A stretch of DNA of 14,836 nt from contig JAFVEX010000091.1 of the NCBI GenBank assembly GCA_017475785.1, positions 1 to 14,836 of the forward strand, in the 5' to 3' direction. Positions 4,858 to 14,836 of the stretch are shown one piece after another. The translations under genes and the position numbers were made by a program. Origin of the DNA: Eubacterium sp. GTDB taxonomy: Bacteria; Bacillota_A; Clostridia; Lachnospirales; Lachnospiraceae. Below the pieces are notes generated by a model. It worked only from the letters and a program-made list of their open reading frames with translations. It did no database searches and had not been told where the DNA came from. Each line of letters begins with the position of its first letter. Positions within the stretch are counted from its first letter, which is position 1.

Positions 4858-5691
4858 ATGTTAGTAACGTTAAATGATGTCTTAAACGACGCGCAGCGGA
4901 ACCACTATGCCGTGGGTCTGTTCAACACGATCAACATGGAAATGGCGCGCGGCGTGCTGGAGGCGGCGGAGGAGCTGGACAGCCCCGTCATCATCGGCAC
5001 GGCAGAAAGCCTGACCAAATATTCTCCCCTGCGGGAGCTCGCGTGGCTCCTGAAGCCGATGGCAGAAGAATCTTCTGTACCGGTGGTACTGCATTTTGAC
5101 CACGGAAAGACGGAACAGAAGATCATAGAGGCACTGAAGCTCGGCTTCTCTTCGGTCATGTATGACTGTTCGACCCTTCCTTATGAAGAAAATGTCGAGC
5201 GTGTCGCGCGCATGACAGAGTTTGCCCACATGTTTGGCGCGACGGTGGAGGGAGAGCTCGGCCACGTCGGGGCGAACGACAGCCCGGACGAGGACGCGGA
5301 TCTCTACACGACGCCGGATGAGGCCGCGGATTACGCGGAGCGCACCGGAATCGATGCCCTGGCGGTCGCGATCGGCACCGCGCACGGAGAATATCTGGAA
5401 ACACCAGTGCTGGATCTGGAGCGGTTGGAAGACATCCGGGCCGCGGTAGATGTGCCGCTTGTCCTGCATGGCGGCTCCGGACTGTCCGACGAGGATTTCC
5501 GGAACTGCATCCGCGGCGGCATCTGCAAGGTTAACATCTACACGGATATTAATCTGGCGGCGGCGCAGGCGGTCGCGGCCTACTACAGTGAATCCAGAAA
5601 GATGGATCGTCTGATTCCGGAGATGGTTGCGGCGGTGAAGGCCGCGGCGATCGAGAAAATGATGATTTTCGGTTCCTGCGGAAGGGCGTGA
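4858..5691 (+). CDS. Class II ketose-bisphosphate aldolase (fructose- or tagatose-1,6-bisphosphate type)
   Basis: 277 residues, the usual length for GatY/KbaY/Fba class II aldolases, which are Zn-dependent and split fructose- or tagatose-1,6-bisphosphate into dihydroxyacetone phosphate and glyceraldehyde 3-phosphate. Seen: the LHFDHG motif with the catalytic Asp81 and Zn ligand His82, the EGELG segment (131-135), Zn ligands His176 (IGTAHGEY) and His204 (LHGGSG), and the phosphate-binding KVNIYTD (224-230). Residue 104 is Cys in MYDCS, where GatY-type enzymes usually have Ala or Gly. Fructose versus tagatose specificity cannot be read from sequence. A good ribosome site GAGGAG lies 6 nt before the ATG. 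The leader has a 6-bp hairpin CCGGCC/GGCCGG (4818-4839). The SUKH gene starts 2 nt after the stop, so the two are probably translated together. Confidence 0.92.
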   Translation: MLVTLNDVLNDAQRNHYAVGLFNTINMEMARGVLEAAEELDSPVIIGTAESLTKYSPLRELAWLLKPMAEESSVPVVLHFDHGKTEQKIIEALKLGFSSVMYDCSTLPYEENVERVARMTEFAHMFGATVEGELGHVGANDSPDEDADLYTTPDEAADYAERTGIDALAVAIGTAHGEYLETPVLDLERLEDIRAAVDVPLVLHGGSGLSDEDFRNCIRGGICKVNIYTDINLAAAQAVAAYYSESRKMDRLIPEMVAAVKAAAIEKMMIFGSCGRA

Positions 5692-11113: not shown

Positions 11114-11881
11114 TCACGGGCAGACCAGCTTGATGTCGTTGTACTGAATCGCGTCCAGGTACTTTTTGTCCGGCTCCCGGTTTGTGACGACCGCATACAG
11201 ATCATTAAACTGATAGAATGACAGGGTGGACGCCTTGTCAAACTTGCTGTCATCCGCGCAGAGGATGATTTTATCGCTGCACGCGACGACCTTTTTCTTG
11301 GTCTCCGCCTCAAAGTAGGTTGTGTGCGTCAGTCCTTTTTCCAGAGAGACGCCCGTCGCCGCAATAAAGGCCGCATTCGCGGAAATTGAAGAGAGCGGAT
11401 CCAGCGTGGAGATGCCGGAATAGGAGCTTGTCGCGTGATTGTAGTAGCCGCCGAGCGCAATGATATTGAGCGAAGGGTATTTGGCCGCTTCGTACATGAC
11501 ATTCAGGGAATGGGTGATCAGCGTCACGTTCGTTTTTTCCGCCAGGTACGGAACCATGCAGGCGACAGTGGTGCCGGAATCCAGAAAGATGGTCTCCCCG
11601 TCGGAAACCATATCGGCCGCCAGACGCCCGATGATATTTTTCGCGGTGCTGTTTTTGACAGAGCGGACCTGAAGCGGAACCGGCGCGGTGTCTGTGTCAT
11701 TCTCGGTGATGGCGGATACGCCGCCGTACACCTTGCGGATGCGCCCGCGCTTGATCAGCTCGTTGACGTCGCGCCGCACGGTGTTGACAGAAACCATAAA
11801 ATGATTCGCCAGATTCTCCAGCGGCACATTTCCTTCGGAGAGAATATACTCCTCCATTTCGATCAGACGGTCAATTCGCAT
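11114..11881 (-). CDS. DeoR/GlpR family transcriptional regulator
   Basis: 255 residues, the normal family length. The N-terminal helix-turn-helix (about 18-55) carries the signature VSVNTVRRDVNELIKRGRIRKVYGG. The C-terminal sensor domain is of the phosphosugar-isomerase-like kind with GETIFLDSGTT (94-104), LITHSLNV and an IALGG segment (145-149), which in this family bind a sugar phosphate and cause release from DNA. An ideal AAGGAGGT site lies 6 nt before the ATG. It is divergent from the GAPDH gene across 436 bp, which makes self-regulation and control of that gene plausible but unproven. A sugar phosphate is the expected effector; which one is not visible. Confidence 0.93.
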   Translation of the reverse strand: MRIDRLIEMEEYILSEGNVPLENLANHFMVSVNTVRRDVNELIKRGRIRKVYGGVSAITENDTDTAPVPLQVRSVKNSTAKNIIGRLAADMVSDGETIFLDSGTTVACMVPYLAEKTNVTLITHSLNVMYEAAKYPSLNIIALGGYYNHATSSYSGISTLDPLSSISANAAFIAATGVSLEKGLTHTTYFEAETKKKVVACSDKIILCADDSKFDKASTLSFYQFNDLYAVVTNREPDKKYLDAIQYNDIKLVCP

Positions 11882-12233: not shown

Positions 12234-12262
12234 TTGCAAAAACTTAACCACTCTAATATAAT
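12234..12262 (+). promoter_or_regulatory. Strong sigma-A promoter for the GAPDH gene
   Basis: TTGCAA (12234-12239) and a perfect TATAAT (12257-12262) are separated by exactly 17 bp, with AT tracts upstream that could act as an UP-like element. The leader would be about 48 nt. The box quality fits a highly expressed gene. Confidence 0.8.
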
Positions 12263-12317: not shown

Positions 12318-13364
12318 ATGGCAAAAGTGAAGGTTGGTGTAGCTGGTTATGGTACAATCGGACAGCGTCTGGCAGACGGTGTCGCAAAGCAGGGAGATAT
12401 GGAGCTTGTCGGTATTGCTGATATGGCCCCGACCCTGGCGATCCGCGCACTTTATGAAAAAGGTATGCCGTATGACCTCTATCTGGTAAACGGTGCAGAT
12501 ACAGCAAAGTTTGACGCAATGGGAATTCCTTACAAGGGATCTTTCCAGGATCTTGTGGATCAGGTCGATGTAATGCTGGATTCCTCTCCGGCAGGTATCG
12601 GTCTGAAGAACAAGCGTATCTACGAGGCGGCAGGCGTCAAGGCAATCTTCCAGGGCGGTGAGAAAAATGAAGTCGCGGATGTCTTCTTCCACGGCTACGC
12701 AAACTTTGAGAATGGTCTCGACCAAAACTATCTGAAGCTGACAAGCTGCAACACGACAGGCCTGATCCGTACCGTCGACGCGCTCGACAGAGCTTACGGC
12801 ATTGATAAGGTTGCGATTACAATTATCCGCCGCGTGGCTGACCCGGGCGATTACAACCGCGGCCTGACAAACGCGCTGCAGATTGAGAAGGCTCCGACCC
12901 ACCAGGCGGTTGACCTGATGACAATTATGCCGCACATCAACGCGACCGGTATTCTGGTTCACACACCAGTAACACACGGCCATATCATCACTGTCCTTGC
13001 GACCGGCAAGAACGGCAAGATCACCAAAGAGATGGCGATGAATGCTTTCAAGGATCATCCGCGTATCCGCATCCTGCGCATGGAAGACGGATTCCTCGGA
13101 AACGCTTCCTACTTCAAGTATGGCCGTGACCTCGGACATGAGCGCGGCGACATGTATGAGATCGGACTCTGGGAGAACAGCATTGTTGAGTCCGGCGACG
13201 ACATCATGTACGCATTCGTTGTTCCGCAGGAAGCAGTCACCATCCCGGAGACCATGGACTGCATCCGCGCAGCTATGCATATGCAGGAGACCCGCGAAGA
13301 GGGCACTTCCGAGACAAACAAATACCTCGGCATTGGCAAGTTCAAAGCGATGGGACTGGGCTGA
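12318..13364 (+). CDS. gap: Type II (archaeal-type) glyceraldehyde-3-phosphate dehydrogenase
   Basis: 348 residues. It oxidises glyceraldehyde 3-phosphate to 1,3-bisphosphoglycerate with NAD(P)+. It resembles archaeal GAPDH, not the usual bacterial GapA: N-terminal VGVAGYGTIGQRLADGV (archaeal form INGYGTIGKRVADAV), catalytic Cys144 in SCNTTGL, RRVADPGDYNRG, His195 in PTHQAVDL, and EDGF...YGRDLG (256-273). The bacterial signature ASCTTN is absent. Archaeal relatives mostly prefer NADP+; the segment after the second strand here is ADMAP and does not settle the cofactor. The start at 12318 is set by AGGAG 8 nt upstream; a longer frame back to 12234 would overlap the promoter. Codon choice (many GGT, CGT, CTG) suggests high expression. 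The archaeal-type PGK follows 365 nt downstream. Confidence 0.9.
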   Translation: MAKVKVGVAGYGTIGQRLADGVAKQGDMELVGIADMAPTLAIRALYEKGMPYDLYLVNGADTAKFDAMGIPYKGSFQDLVDQVDVMLDSSPAGIGLKNKRIYEAAGVKAIFQGGEKNEVADVFFHGYANFENGLDQNYLKLTSCNTTGLIRTVDALDRAYGIDKVAITIIRRVADPGDYNRGLTNALQIEKAPTHQAVDLMTIMPHINATGILVHTPVTHGHIITVLATGKNGKITKEMAMNAFKDHPRIRILRMEDGFLGNASYFKYGRDLGHERGDMYEIGLWENSIVESGDDIMYAFVVPQEAVTIPETMDCIRAAMHMQETREEGTSETNKYLGIGKFKAMGLG

Positions 13365-13453
13365 TCCGCAGAGAAAACATGACTGCCGGGCAAAAGCCTG
13401 TATGATAAAAACGCATAAAGCTGCAGCGGCAGAAACGTGTAAATGAAACAAAT

Positions 13454-13487
13454 GAGGCTGCCACGCATGCGGGGCAGCCTCGTTCTT
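13454..13487 (+). terminator. Terminator-like hairpin after the GAPDH gene
   Basis: A perfect 9-bp stem GAGGCTGCC (13454-13462) with GGCAGCCTC (13473-13481) surrounds a loop holding the small palindrome CGCATGCG. It is followed by GTTCTT, a short T-rich tail. The A-rich upstream side would make it work better on the minus strand. Partial read-through into pgk is possible. Confidence 0.6.
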
Positions 13488-13605
13488 GACATGGCGGGAG
13501 GGCGCTCTGTCCCGGAGCAGCGCCTGCCATACAAAAGCCTGCGGCGGACGTTGATCCCGATGTGGATTTTGTTTTCGCCGCAGTCTGTCCGATCATTTAA
13601 TACAG

Positions 13606-13685
13606 GGAAACGCTGATTTAAATTTATCCTTTTTGGCGGAAAAATCTCCTCGGGATCAGACCGGCTCGAATGAATCAGTTTTTCC
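13606..13685 (+). repeat. MITE/REP-like palindromic element, copy C
   Basis: 80 bp, same orientation as copy B, with ends GGAAACGCTGATTTAA and AATCAGTTTTTCC. The right half (CGGGATCAGACCGGCTCGAA) matches copy A read on its minus strand, including the part missing from copy B. The left interior (about 13622-13650) is unrelated to A and B. It lies 44 nt before the pgk start. Confidence 0.75.
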
Positions 13686-13729
13686 ATAGGATATAAATGC
13701 CGCCGCGCAGGCGGCAGAATGGAGCATAC

Positions 13730-14836
13730 ATGAAATTTGGAATCCGTACACTGGATGAAGTCAACGTGAGCGGCAAGACCGTTCTCTGCAGAATCGATAT
13801 CAACCAGCCGGTCGATATGGAGACAGGCACGCTGAAGAGCACGACCAGAATTCAGGCGTGCGTGCCGACCATCCGCGAGCTCTCCGACAAGGGCGCGAAG
13901 GTGGTTTTGATGGCGCATCAGGGAAGTGATATCGAGTATCAGAACTTTTACACAACTGAGCCTCACAGCAAGGTGCTTTCCGAACTGCTCGGACGTGAGG
14001 TGCAGTTCATTCCGGACGTCTGCGGCCCTGCGGCGATCGAGAAGATCAAGTCCCTCAAGAACGGCGAGATCCTGCTTCTGGACAATGTCCGCTTTATGTC
14101 AGAGGAGCAGACTCTGTTTGAGAAGAAGCTCCGCCTGACCCACGAGGAAATGGCGAAGACGATCGTCGTGCGCAAGCTGGCGCCGCTCGGAGATCTGTAT
14201 CTGAACGATGCGTTCGCCGCGGCGCACAGAGATCAGCCGACTCTCTCCGGATTTGAGCAGGTACTTCCGTCCATGATGGGCCGCCTGTTCGAGAAGGAGT
14301 ACGTCGTACTCTCCGAGCTTATGGAAGCGCCGGCACGTCCCTGCACATTCGTCCTCGGCGGCGCGAAGATCGCGGACGCGTTCCTGATGATGGAATCCGT
14401 CCTGTCCGCAGGCGCCGCAGATCACATTCTGGCGGGCGGCGTCGTGGCAAACATTCTTCTGATCGCGAAGGGCGAGCAGATCGGTCAGGGCAGCTATGAC
14501 TTCATCGTCAAGTCGAACTACGAGGAGTTTTTCGAGAAGGCAAAGATCCTTCTGGAGAAATATGCCGACAAGATCGTCCTGCCGGTTGACCTGGCGTGGA
14601 CAGAAGGCGATGCGCGCAAAGAGGCAAAGATCGGCGAGATTCCGGAGTCAATCGGATCTACTGACATCGGCGAAGAGACCGCGAAGATGTATCAGAAATA
14701 TATCCTCGAGTCAAAAACCGTCTTTGTCAATGGACCGATGGGCATCTTTGAGGCAGAGCTGACAGAGCTCGGCACAAAGATGGTCTGGGACGCGCTGGGC
14801 GATACCGAGGCATTCACCGTCGTCGGCGGCGGCGAC
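13730..14836 (+). CDS. pgk: Phosphoglycerate kinase, archaeal-type, 3' truncated by window edge
   Basis: 369 residues visible with no stop; archaeal PGKs are about 400-410, so roughly 40 residues are missing. It makes ATP and 3-phosphoglycerate from 1,3-bisphosphoglycerate, the product of the GAPDH encoded upstream. Motifs are the archaeal variants: RTLDE (6-10), RIDINQPVD (21-29; bacteria RVDFNVP), AHQGSD (62-67; bacteria SHLGRP), LLDNVRF (116-122), LAPLGDLYLNDAFAAAHR (150-167), VLPSMMGRLFEKE (178-190), LGGAKIADAF (209-218) and NGPMGIFE (334-341). Start: GGAG at 13721-13724, 5 nt before ATG. All substrate and nucleotide motifs are present, so it should be active. Whether it is transcribed with gap or from its own promoter is unclear. 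Confidence 0.92.
   Translation, partial: MKFGIRTLDEVNVSGKTVLCRIDINQPVDMETGTLKSTTRIQACVPTIRELSDKGAKVVLMAHQGSDIEYQNFYTTEPHSKVLSELLGREVQFIPDVCGPAAIEKIKSLKNGEILLLDNVRFMSEEQTLFEKKLRLTHEEMAKTIVVRKLAPLGDLYLNDAFAAAHRDQPTLSGFEQVLPSMMGRLFEKEYVVLSELMEAPARPCTFVLGGAKIADAFLMMESVLSAGAADHILAGGVVANILLIAKGEQIGQGSYDFIVKSNYEEFFEKAKILLEKYADKIVLPVDLAWTEGDARKEAKIGEIPESIGSTDIGEETAKMYQKYILESKTVFVNGPMGIFEAELTELGTKMVWDALGDTEAFTVVGGGD

Follow-up and report, generated by a model that had tools for sequence, protein, structure and literature searches.

Why does a bacterium of the Lachnospiraceae carry, side by side, genes for a glyceraldehyde-3-phosphate dehydrogenase (GAPDH) and a phosphoglycerate kinase (PGK) of the archaeal type? 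We addressed this question for 14,836 nucleotides of Eubacterium sp. DNA (assembly GCA_017475785.1, contig JAFVEX010000091.1), referred to here at its full length as the window. At its right-hand end lies an intact open reading frame (ORF) of 348 amino acids for a type II GAPDH family protein (positions 12318 to 13364, plus strand; here, GAP2), followed by the ORF of a PGK family protein (13730 to 14836, plus strand; here, PGK2). The latter is cut by the window end after 369 residues, while complete relatives have ~412 to 426. An original prediction had seen in this pair a replacement or a second route for lower glycolysis. From gene content and sequence, we propose with a probability of roughly two in three that GAP2 and PGK2 would instead provide the oxidation and substrate-level phosphorylation step of a transketolase-based catabolism of sugar acids, which in Clostridia would mainly serve inositol.

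GAP2 and PGK2 belong to archaeal-type families but form clades of their own

GAP2 exceeded the cut-offs of NF003251 (type II GAPDH; 389.5 bits against 185) and TIGR01546 (295.2 against 232.9). As a control, 4 of 14 well-known genomes passed the NF003251 cut-off, and these were the four archaea. The solved structures nearest to GAP2 were 2czc, 1cf2, 2yyy, and 1b7g (E values of 3.8e-74 to 5.8e-62); an archaeal source was confirmed for 1cf2, and we take the other three to be archaeal enzymes as well. The next solved matches were GAPDHs of the Escherichia coli type, at an E value of 3e-4. PGK2 scored 341 bits against the Pfam PGK family (PF00162; gathering score, 27), and none of the NCBIfam PGK models was passed. 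Its nearest solved structure was 2cun (E value, 6.9e-76), presumably the Pyrococcus PGK, followed by 1vpe (1e-55). The family models and PDB comparisons thus bore out the prediction of an archaeal-type GAPDH and PGK encoded next to each other, and the SCNTTG motif named for GAP2 was present.

In a phylogenetic tree, GAP2 and its relatives formed a clade of 69 sequences (support, 0.905; stem, 0.95) apart from 18 archaeal and 6 other bacterial archaeal-like GAPDHs. The archaeal rows comprised 16 of the 120 matches listed for 1cf2 as the query, judging by name mostly from Methanobacteria, together with 2czc and 2yyy. A tree of 48 PGK2s, 26 canonical PGKs, 1vpe, and 2cun placed all PGK2s in one clade (0.969), with 2cun, the single archaeal sequence included, adjoining (0.933). 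The predicted archaeal lineage therefore holds at the level of the sequence family, but a recent transfer from archaea was not shown: in these small samples the bacterial proteins form separate clades, that of GAP2 on a long stem.

The pair accompanies ordinary glycolytic enzymes in most relatives

The nearest records, with GAP2s 98 to 99% identical to that of the window, were Lachnospiraceae bacterium FE2018 and two metagenome-assembled genomes (MAGs) of Eubacterium sp. from goat and roe deer jejunum. Our set of relatives comprised 54 related GAP2 loci from 47 genomes, some of the loci being cut by contig ends. A full-length canonical PGK (at least 488 bits) was detected in 38 of these genomes and GAPDH-I, over its cut-off, in 39. 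Of the nine genomes without a full-length canonical PGK, three (G012, G022, and G031) contain fragments of a second PGK; the other six (G025, G027, G035, G037, G038, and G045), all MAGs, hold the low-scoring PGK class only. Because the three closest relatives also hold both an ordinary gap and an ordinary pgk gene, side by side in genomes G002 and G003, GAP2-PGK2 is not a replacement, and we rejected the predicted paired substitution of glycolytic enzymes for the relatives. Nor is the pairing general in the host's group, a check that had been suggested along with the prediction: type II GAPDH is sporadic, with 5 carriers among 155 genomes of the family and 11 among 293 of the class.

GAP2 and PGK2 recur with inositol, transketolase, and malate racemase genes

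PGK2 was found on the same stretch as GAP2 in 50 of the 54 loci (exceptions: L031, L033, L044, and L053), directly downstream in 49 and upstream in L013. At least 14 of the pairs overlap by 1 to 16 nt according to the ORF calls, and in the class sample PGK2 adjoins GAP2 in 10 of 11 carriers, the exception being genome G280. Distances among GAP2s were correlated with those among PGK2s (r = 0.60 over 47 pairs; 0 of 2,000 permutations as high). The adjacency of the pair and its correlated distances support joint transmission, as predicted.

To name the neighbors, adjacent ORFs were clustered and representatives were scanned with family models; counts over the 54 loci were then made by tblastn, names beyond the scanned representatives being assigned by homology. 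A LarA-type neighbor passed the nickel malate racemase model NF052593 (578.8 bits in L003 and 503.2 in L176; cut-off, 500) and is called MAR here. MAR was found in 38 loci, the C- and N-terminal halves of a split transketolase (TK-C and TK-N) in 35 and 34, and the inositol genes IolD, IolB, and IolE in 28, 27, and 27, where IolB denotes an IolB-like protein. Malic enzyme (24 loci; below the cut-off of its model, which is much longer), IolG (18), and a DeoR-family regulator (13) were further partners. Scanned representatives of IolD, IolE, and IolG exceeded their cut-offs. At least one of MAR, TK-N, IolD, IolB, and IolE occurred in 46 of the 54 loci; of the 35 loci for which both flanks were available, 29 carried MAR, 27 both transketolase halves, and 22 iol genes.

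The fullest arrangements place these genes in a row. In genome G003 the order is GAP2, PGK2, MAR, malic enzyme, TK-N, TK-C, a lipoprotein-like gene, IolD (868 bits; cut-off, 715), IolB, IolE, and IolG, with a divergent DeoR gene; homology to cluster members identified IolE and the IolB-like protein there, and the stretch from GAP2 to IolG contains neither a kinase nor an aldolase gene. In genome G228, nine genes run in one direction (GAP2-PGK2-TK-N-TK-C-IolB-IolD-IolE-IolG-MAR). GAP2-PGK2 thus probably belongs to an accessory catabolic module and not to glycolysis. That it is a main pathway of lower glycolysis, as had been suggested, is unsupported, the pair being found in the company of genes for malate racemase, a split transketolase, and inositol breakdown.

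In the host's class, GAP2 co-occurs with IolD and not with IolC

We observed the same association at the level of genomes. G003, the genome on which the class sample of 293 was centered, we take to be a member of the Clostridia. Over model cut-offs, type II GAPDH was present in 11 of these genomes, IolD in 23, IolC in 13, and MAR in 33. GAP2 and IolD occurred together in nine (P = 1e-9 by Fisher's test, which here and below ignores relatedness); without G003, IolD was found in 8 of 10 GAP2 carriers. The 23 IolD genomes were divided between those with IolC (11) and those with GAP2 (9), none having both and three (G078, G104, and G119) having neither (P = 3e-4); that is, IolC did not pass its cut-off in any of the nine genomes with GAP2 and IolD. 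MAR was present in 10 of 11 GAP2 genomes versus 23 of the 282 others (P = 9e-10). Among the 47 relatives, 35 held IolD over the cut-off and two more held it in pieces. Four relatives, all IolD positive, had IolC over its cut-off, leaving 31 of the 35 IolD-positive genomes in which it was absent at that threshold. In the 1.1-Mb genome G035, locus L142 on contig 29 has an 882-bit IolD match with three in-frame TGA codons, the gene being either recoded or broken.

Residues change at the sites expected to contact the substrate phosphate and the cofactor

We aligned the GAP2s that passed a length filter (51 of the 54 loci plus the window; n = 52). The Cys144 of SCNTTG is present in all 52 and His220, which we take to align with the archaeal active-site histidine, in 51. 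The PSHHGPDV motif of three solved archaeal enzymes reads P(S/T/N)HQA-DL in GAP2, with His replaced by Gln196 and Gly by Ala197 in all 52 sequences; elsewhere, archaeal VPTTLMH has become HTPVTH and VHQE has become PQE. At position 35, presumably a site bearing on the choice between NAD and NADP, the lysine shared by all three archaeal enzymes gives way to Asp in 48, Gly in 3, and Asn in 1 of the bacterial proteins. This pattern favors NAD over NADP as the predicted cofactor and disfavors the NADP linkage that had been raised as a possibility.

For PGK2, 47 loci and the window (n = 48) were aligned against 26 canonical PGKs, 30 having been extracted and four of 646 to 648 amino acids, probably fusions, left out. 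R21, D23, N25, R40, H63, R121, R167, and K213 are kept in all 48 PGK2s, as in the canonical enzymes. Position 66, which we take to bind the 3-phosphate (Arg65 in the human enzyme), is Arg or Lys in 26 of 26 canonical PGKs and Lys in 2cun; in PGK2 it is Ser (32 sequences) or Asp (16), so that a complete basic 3-phosphate site is lacking. Canonical K217 is Ala in all 48 and Ser in 2cun.

The transketolase carries a change of its own. In the sugar head-group column, matched presumably correctly by way of yeast transketolase numbering, Asp takes the place of the histidine in all 31 true TK-C sequences. Four of the 35 rows had been dropped from this count: L006, L016 (located beside an E1_dh gene), and L031 resemble E1-type dehydrogenase chains, and L017 does not have the region.

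A proposed route from inositol to pyruvate

We infer the following chemical steps and their stereochemistry from these genes. In the known inositol route, IolG, IolE, IolD, and IolB lead to 2-deoxy-5-keto-D-gluconate (DKG), and their counterparts here would do the same. The split transketolase, in place of the kinase IolC and the aldolase IolJ, would then transfer C5 and C6 of DKG onto an aldose phosphate acceptor, which by analogy with sulfo-transketolase may be glyceraldehyde-3-phosphate, yielding xylulose-5-phosphate. From the keto end, DKG reads CH2OH-CO-CHOH(left)-CHOH(right)-CH2-COOH, with the D-threo arrangement of transketolase donors. Removal of the two carbons would release (R)-3-hydroxy-4-oxobutanoate, i.e., (R)-malic semialdehyde. 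The layout of this aldehyde, OHC-CHOH(right)-CH2-COOH, mirrors that of D-glyceraldehyde-3-phosphate, with CH2-COO- replacing CH2-OPO3.

GAP2 would act on it as a phosphorylating (R)-malic semialdehyde dehydrogenase, converting malic semialdehyde, NAD, and phosphate to D-malyl-1-phosphate, an analogue of 1,3-bisphosphoglycerate. PGK2, as a D-malyl-1-phosphate:ADP phosphotransferase, would pass the phosphate to ADP and leave D-malate and ATP. The stereochemistry predicts a malate racemase, because the D-malate formed by oxidation would be unusable by an L-malate-specific malic enzyme without racemization: the nickel enzyme would convert D- to L-malate, and malic enzyme would convert L-malate to pyruvate and CO2. 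No ATP would be spent on a kinase, and one would be gained. Enzymatic oxidation of malic semialdehyde to D-malate is described for carnitine breakdown (PMC11353897). Synthetic work on malyl-phosphate (PMC5481828) was considered as a precedent and rejected, for it concerns malyl-4-phosphate and hence the other carboxyl group. A description of the route was not found in the titles, abstract openings, and passages searched, a body of literature that leaves most subscription journals and bioRxiv uncovered and so is weak evidence of novelty.

Cluster variants in Anaerolineae and other lineages

A second class gave a different picture. In 160 genomes of the Anaerolineae, to which G036 (Flexilinea) presumably belongs, type II GAPDH occurred in 14, IolC in 22, and IolD over its cut-off in 27, with GAPDH and IolD together in one (P = 0.47). 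The link to IolD thus failed to replicate in this class (1 of 14). The 14 genomes divide into eight with GAP2 proper beside PGK2 and seven with a solitary GAPDH, G429 holding both; the eight with the pair (G036 counted) have IolD in one, MAR in six, and the transketolase in five. DKG is therefore not a universal substrate of GAP2-PGK2, since only one of these eight has IolD, and other sugar acids probably feed the pair in this class.

Several loci point to what such feeds could be. An IolO-like 5-keto-gluconate epimerase (264 to 283 bits; cut-off, 300) lies in the Anaerolineae GAP2 loci L172, L173, L174, and L176. L173 also has a gene of the tartrate/isopropylmalate-dehydrogenase family, below the cut-offs, whereas MAR is absent from the 17 kb examined there. 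A Lactonifactor locus combines GAP2-PGK2 with a tagaturonate-epimerase family protein (UxaE). In a MAG of the Spirochaetia (L038), GAP2-PGK2 is accompanied by a racemase-like gene (33% identity) and by HpcH/HpaI aldolase, fucose-isomerase-like, and URO-D-like genes, with no transketolase in its 8.8 kb; this is possibly an aldolase-fed variant of the module. The recurring theme is a GAP2-PGK2 pair together with enzymes that could form a C4 acid aldehyde and others that could consume a C4 hydroxy-diacid.

Three further observations concern related genes. In L171 (Anaerolineae), GAP2-PGK2-MAR stands beside pyruvate-dehydrogenase-like E1 alpha and beta genes in place of a transketolase. The solitary GAPDHs of the Anaerolineae (L177 to L183) are a second bacterial archaeal-like type, 36 to 41% identical to GAP2 and with a motif that is mostly PSHQGPDA; neither PGK2 nor malate racemase matched in the stretches compared (4.9 to 18 kb), and L177, the seventh of them, was too short for the GAP2 tree. 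Finally, GAP2 is matched at <60% identity by 33 plasmid records, including some from Rhodococcus and Paracoccus (e.g., NZ_CP041044.1 among the 33). The eight of these matches that were listed, of which seven carry a type II GAPDH annotation, are 34 to 36% identical to GAP2 and represent another bacterial branch.

Other features of the window

Divergent from GAP2 lies a DeoR-family regulator gene (11114 to 11881, minus strand; PF00455/PF08220). Orthologues 96 to 97% identical are likewise divergent from GAP2 in L001 to L003, making DeoR a possible regulator of the GAP2-PGK2 module. Upstream of GAP2 is a promoter-like site (TTGCAA-17-TATAAT; 12234 to 12262, plus strand; 10 of 12 consensus matches), which taken alone is weak evidence because shuffled sequence gave a mean of 2.8 such sites (standard deviation, 1.4) against the 5 found in the window. 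The spacer between GAP2 and PGK2 measures 365 nt, compared with only 171 to 178 nt in L001 to L003. It contains an RNA hairpin (13451 to 13484, plus strand; -23.4 kcal/mol; z score, -4.71; none of 200 shuffles equally stable) that has no U-run tail and is not among the terminators predicted in the window; it is possibly a processing or attenuation element.

Three other genes of the window were noted. A class II ketose-bisphosphate aldolase (4858 to 5691), ~6.6 kb from GAP2, passes no cut-off but that of the subfamily model cbbA and has a match in just one of the 54 related loci (L030). An incomplete Gfo/Idh/MocA oxidoreductase (2 to 1006) is best matched by a levoglucosan dehydrogenase model, below its cut-off (272.5 of 650 bits), and matches IolG weakly (70.1 of 355). 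In a single ORF (1118 to 2335), a domain of the dinitrogenase iron-molybdenum-cofactor type is combined with a low-complexity stretch rich in Gly and Cys and with an FKBP-type isomerase domain.

Discussion

Our reading of GAP2-PGK2 as an oxidation and phosphorylation step for malic semialdehyde has several observations to contend with. The iol, transketolase, MAR, and malic enzyme genes are all missing from the window; because the window ends inside PGK2, we infer their presence in this organism from relatives. Nucleotide matches to L001 to L003 are confined to GAP2, PGK2, and the nearby spacer, DeoR matching as protein, and the spacer hairpin could uncouple expression of the two genes. Because the other listed residues of the 3-phosphate site are kept, PGK2 may also bind 3-phosphoglycerate. 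The single IolB-like protein scanned reached 86.9 bits, below the cut-off of 205. None of the five partners MAR, TK-N, IolD, IolB, and IolE is found in 8 of the 54 loci, and in Catonella (L030) the pair lies beside arabinose genes. IolD is absent, even in pieces, from 10 of the 47 relatives. In the class sample, neither IolD nor MAR passes its cut-off in the carrier G280, and its GAP2 has no PGK2 in the surrounding 17 kb; moreover, that sample has G003 at its center, includes an already known carrier (G046), and was tested without regard to relatedness. The scarcity of IolD beside GAP2 in Anaerolineae points the same way. All of these weigh against the proposal.

We think it quite unlikely that the genes encode a true second GAPDH-PGK pair working on glyceraldehyde-3-phosphate in glycolysis or gluconeogenesis under other conditions, as originally predicted. 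Family-level homology to archaeal enzymes, the retention of most listed active-site residues, and the Catonella locus speak for it, but most of the 47 relatives already have canonical enzymes, the genes are linked to malate racemase, transketolase, and iol genes and exclude IolC, and R/K66 is lost in 48 of 48 PGK2s. A bacterial type II GAPDH was moreover inactive as a GAPDH when tested, according to PMC6543838, a result that could be technical and concerns an enzyme that may lie outside the GAP2 clade. The same gene clusters would also fit a GAPDH-PGK pair dedicated to glyceraldehyde-3-phosphate or dihydroxyacetone phosphate (DHAP) derived from inositol, with transketolase, racemase, and malic enzyme serving another branch; the usual inositol route does end in DHAP. 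This too appears unlikely: IolC was absent by model from the nine class genomes with GAP2 and IolD, no aldolase was identified among the recurrent neighbors (IolJ was not searched for by any model), malate racemase and malic enzyme would have no role in it, and most relatives already hold GAPDH-I and canonical PGK.

A third possibility keeps the chemistry and changes the substrate. The aldehyde might be tartrate semialdehyde from acids of the 5-keto-gluconate or tagaturonate type, with inositol as one feed only. It is suggested by the IolO-like epimerase (196 to 283 bits) beside transketolase and GAP2-PGK2 in a locus of Blautia as well as those four of the Anaerolineae, by UxaE in Lactonifactor, and by the dehydrogenase-family protein of L173; malate racemases also epimerize tartrate (PMC11770544). 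The same source reports that another malate racemase, LarAH62, prefers malate over tartrate. The Clostridia loci often include IolD, IolB, and IolE, and DKG would yield malic, not tartaric, semialdehyde, so we consider tartrate semialdehyde improbable as the true substrate. What speaks for the proposed route is the combination of gene content, co-occurrence, the exclusion of IolC in the class sample, and the residue changes, all of which were directly observed.

Several known systems resemble parts of the proposed route. Inositol catabolism of the Bacillus subtilis type runs IolG-E-D-B-C-J-A, and the module shares IolG, IolE, IolD, and the IolB-like protein up to DKG, beyond which most IolD-positive relatives have, in place of IolC, the transketolase, GAP2, PGK2, MAR, and malic enzyme. 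The core genes of inositol clusters are given as IolB, C, D, and E (PMC9430895); of these, G003 has IolD, IolB, and IolE and no IolC over the cut-off. Sulfo-transketolase (SqwGH) of the sulfoquinovose pathway is likewise split, acts on a ketose with a terminal nonphosphate acid, and transfers two carbons to glyceraldehyde-3-phosphate, and in a sulfofructose transketolase the head-group histidine is replaced by Asp (PMC11659671), matching the change in TK-C. The module differs in having a carboxylate instead of a sulfonate and in the proposed oxidation of the leftover aldehyde through an acyl phosphate with a gain of ATP. With the archaeal GAPDHs (1cf2, 2czc, and 2yyy) and PGK (2cun), GAP2 and PGK2 share the family, the GAPDH Cys and His, the PGK lysine, and most ligand residues; they differ in the altered GAP2 motif, in Asp35 for Lys, in Ser or Asp for Lys66, and in forming clades of their own. 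MAR passes the model of the nickel malate racemase LarAH6/Mar2, an enzyme type whose physiological role is left open in PMC7583248 and for which the gene context here offers one.

On a broader scale, split transketolases may act on 5-keto sugar acids derived from inositol, uronates, or keto-gluconates, producing a C2 fragment along with a C4 aldehyde acid that mimics glyceraldehyde-3-phosphate; from the latter, a repurposed GAPDH-PGK pair would make ATP by way of a C4 hydroxy-diacid acyl phosphate, either D-malyl or tartryl phosphate. Whether this "carboxylate glycolysis" is widespread we regard as evenly balanced. If the proposed route is correct, it would add a natural substrate-level phosphorylation, through a malate acyl phosphate, that was not met in the literature searched, and a case in which GAPDH and PGK were recruited as a pair to a substrate whose carboxylate stands for the phosphate. 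PMC6543838 states, as of 2019, that functional evidence is lacking for bacterial type II GAPDHs; our proposal gives one branch of them a testable function. Genomes with only this route would seem incomplete in surveys based on IolB, C, D, and E (PMC9430895). In nature, inositol has a source in plant phytate, and the module would explain how anaerobes with IolD but without IolC could make use of it.

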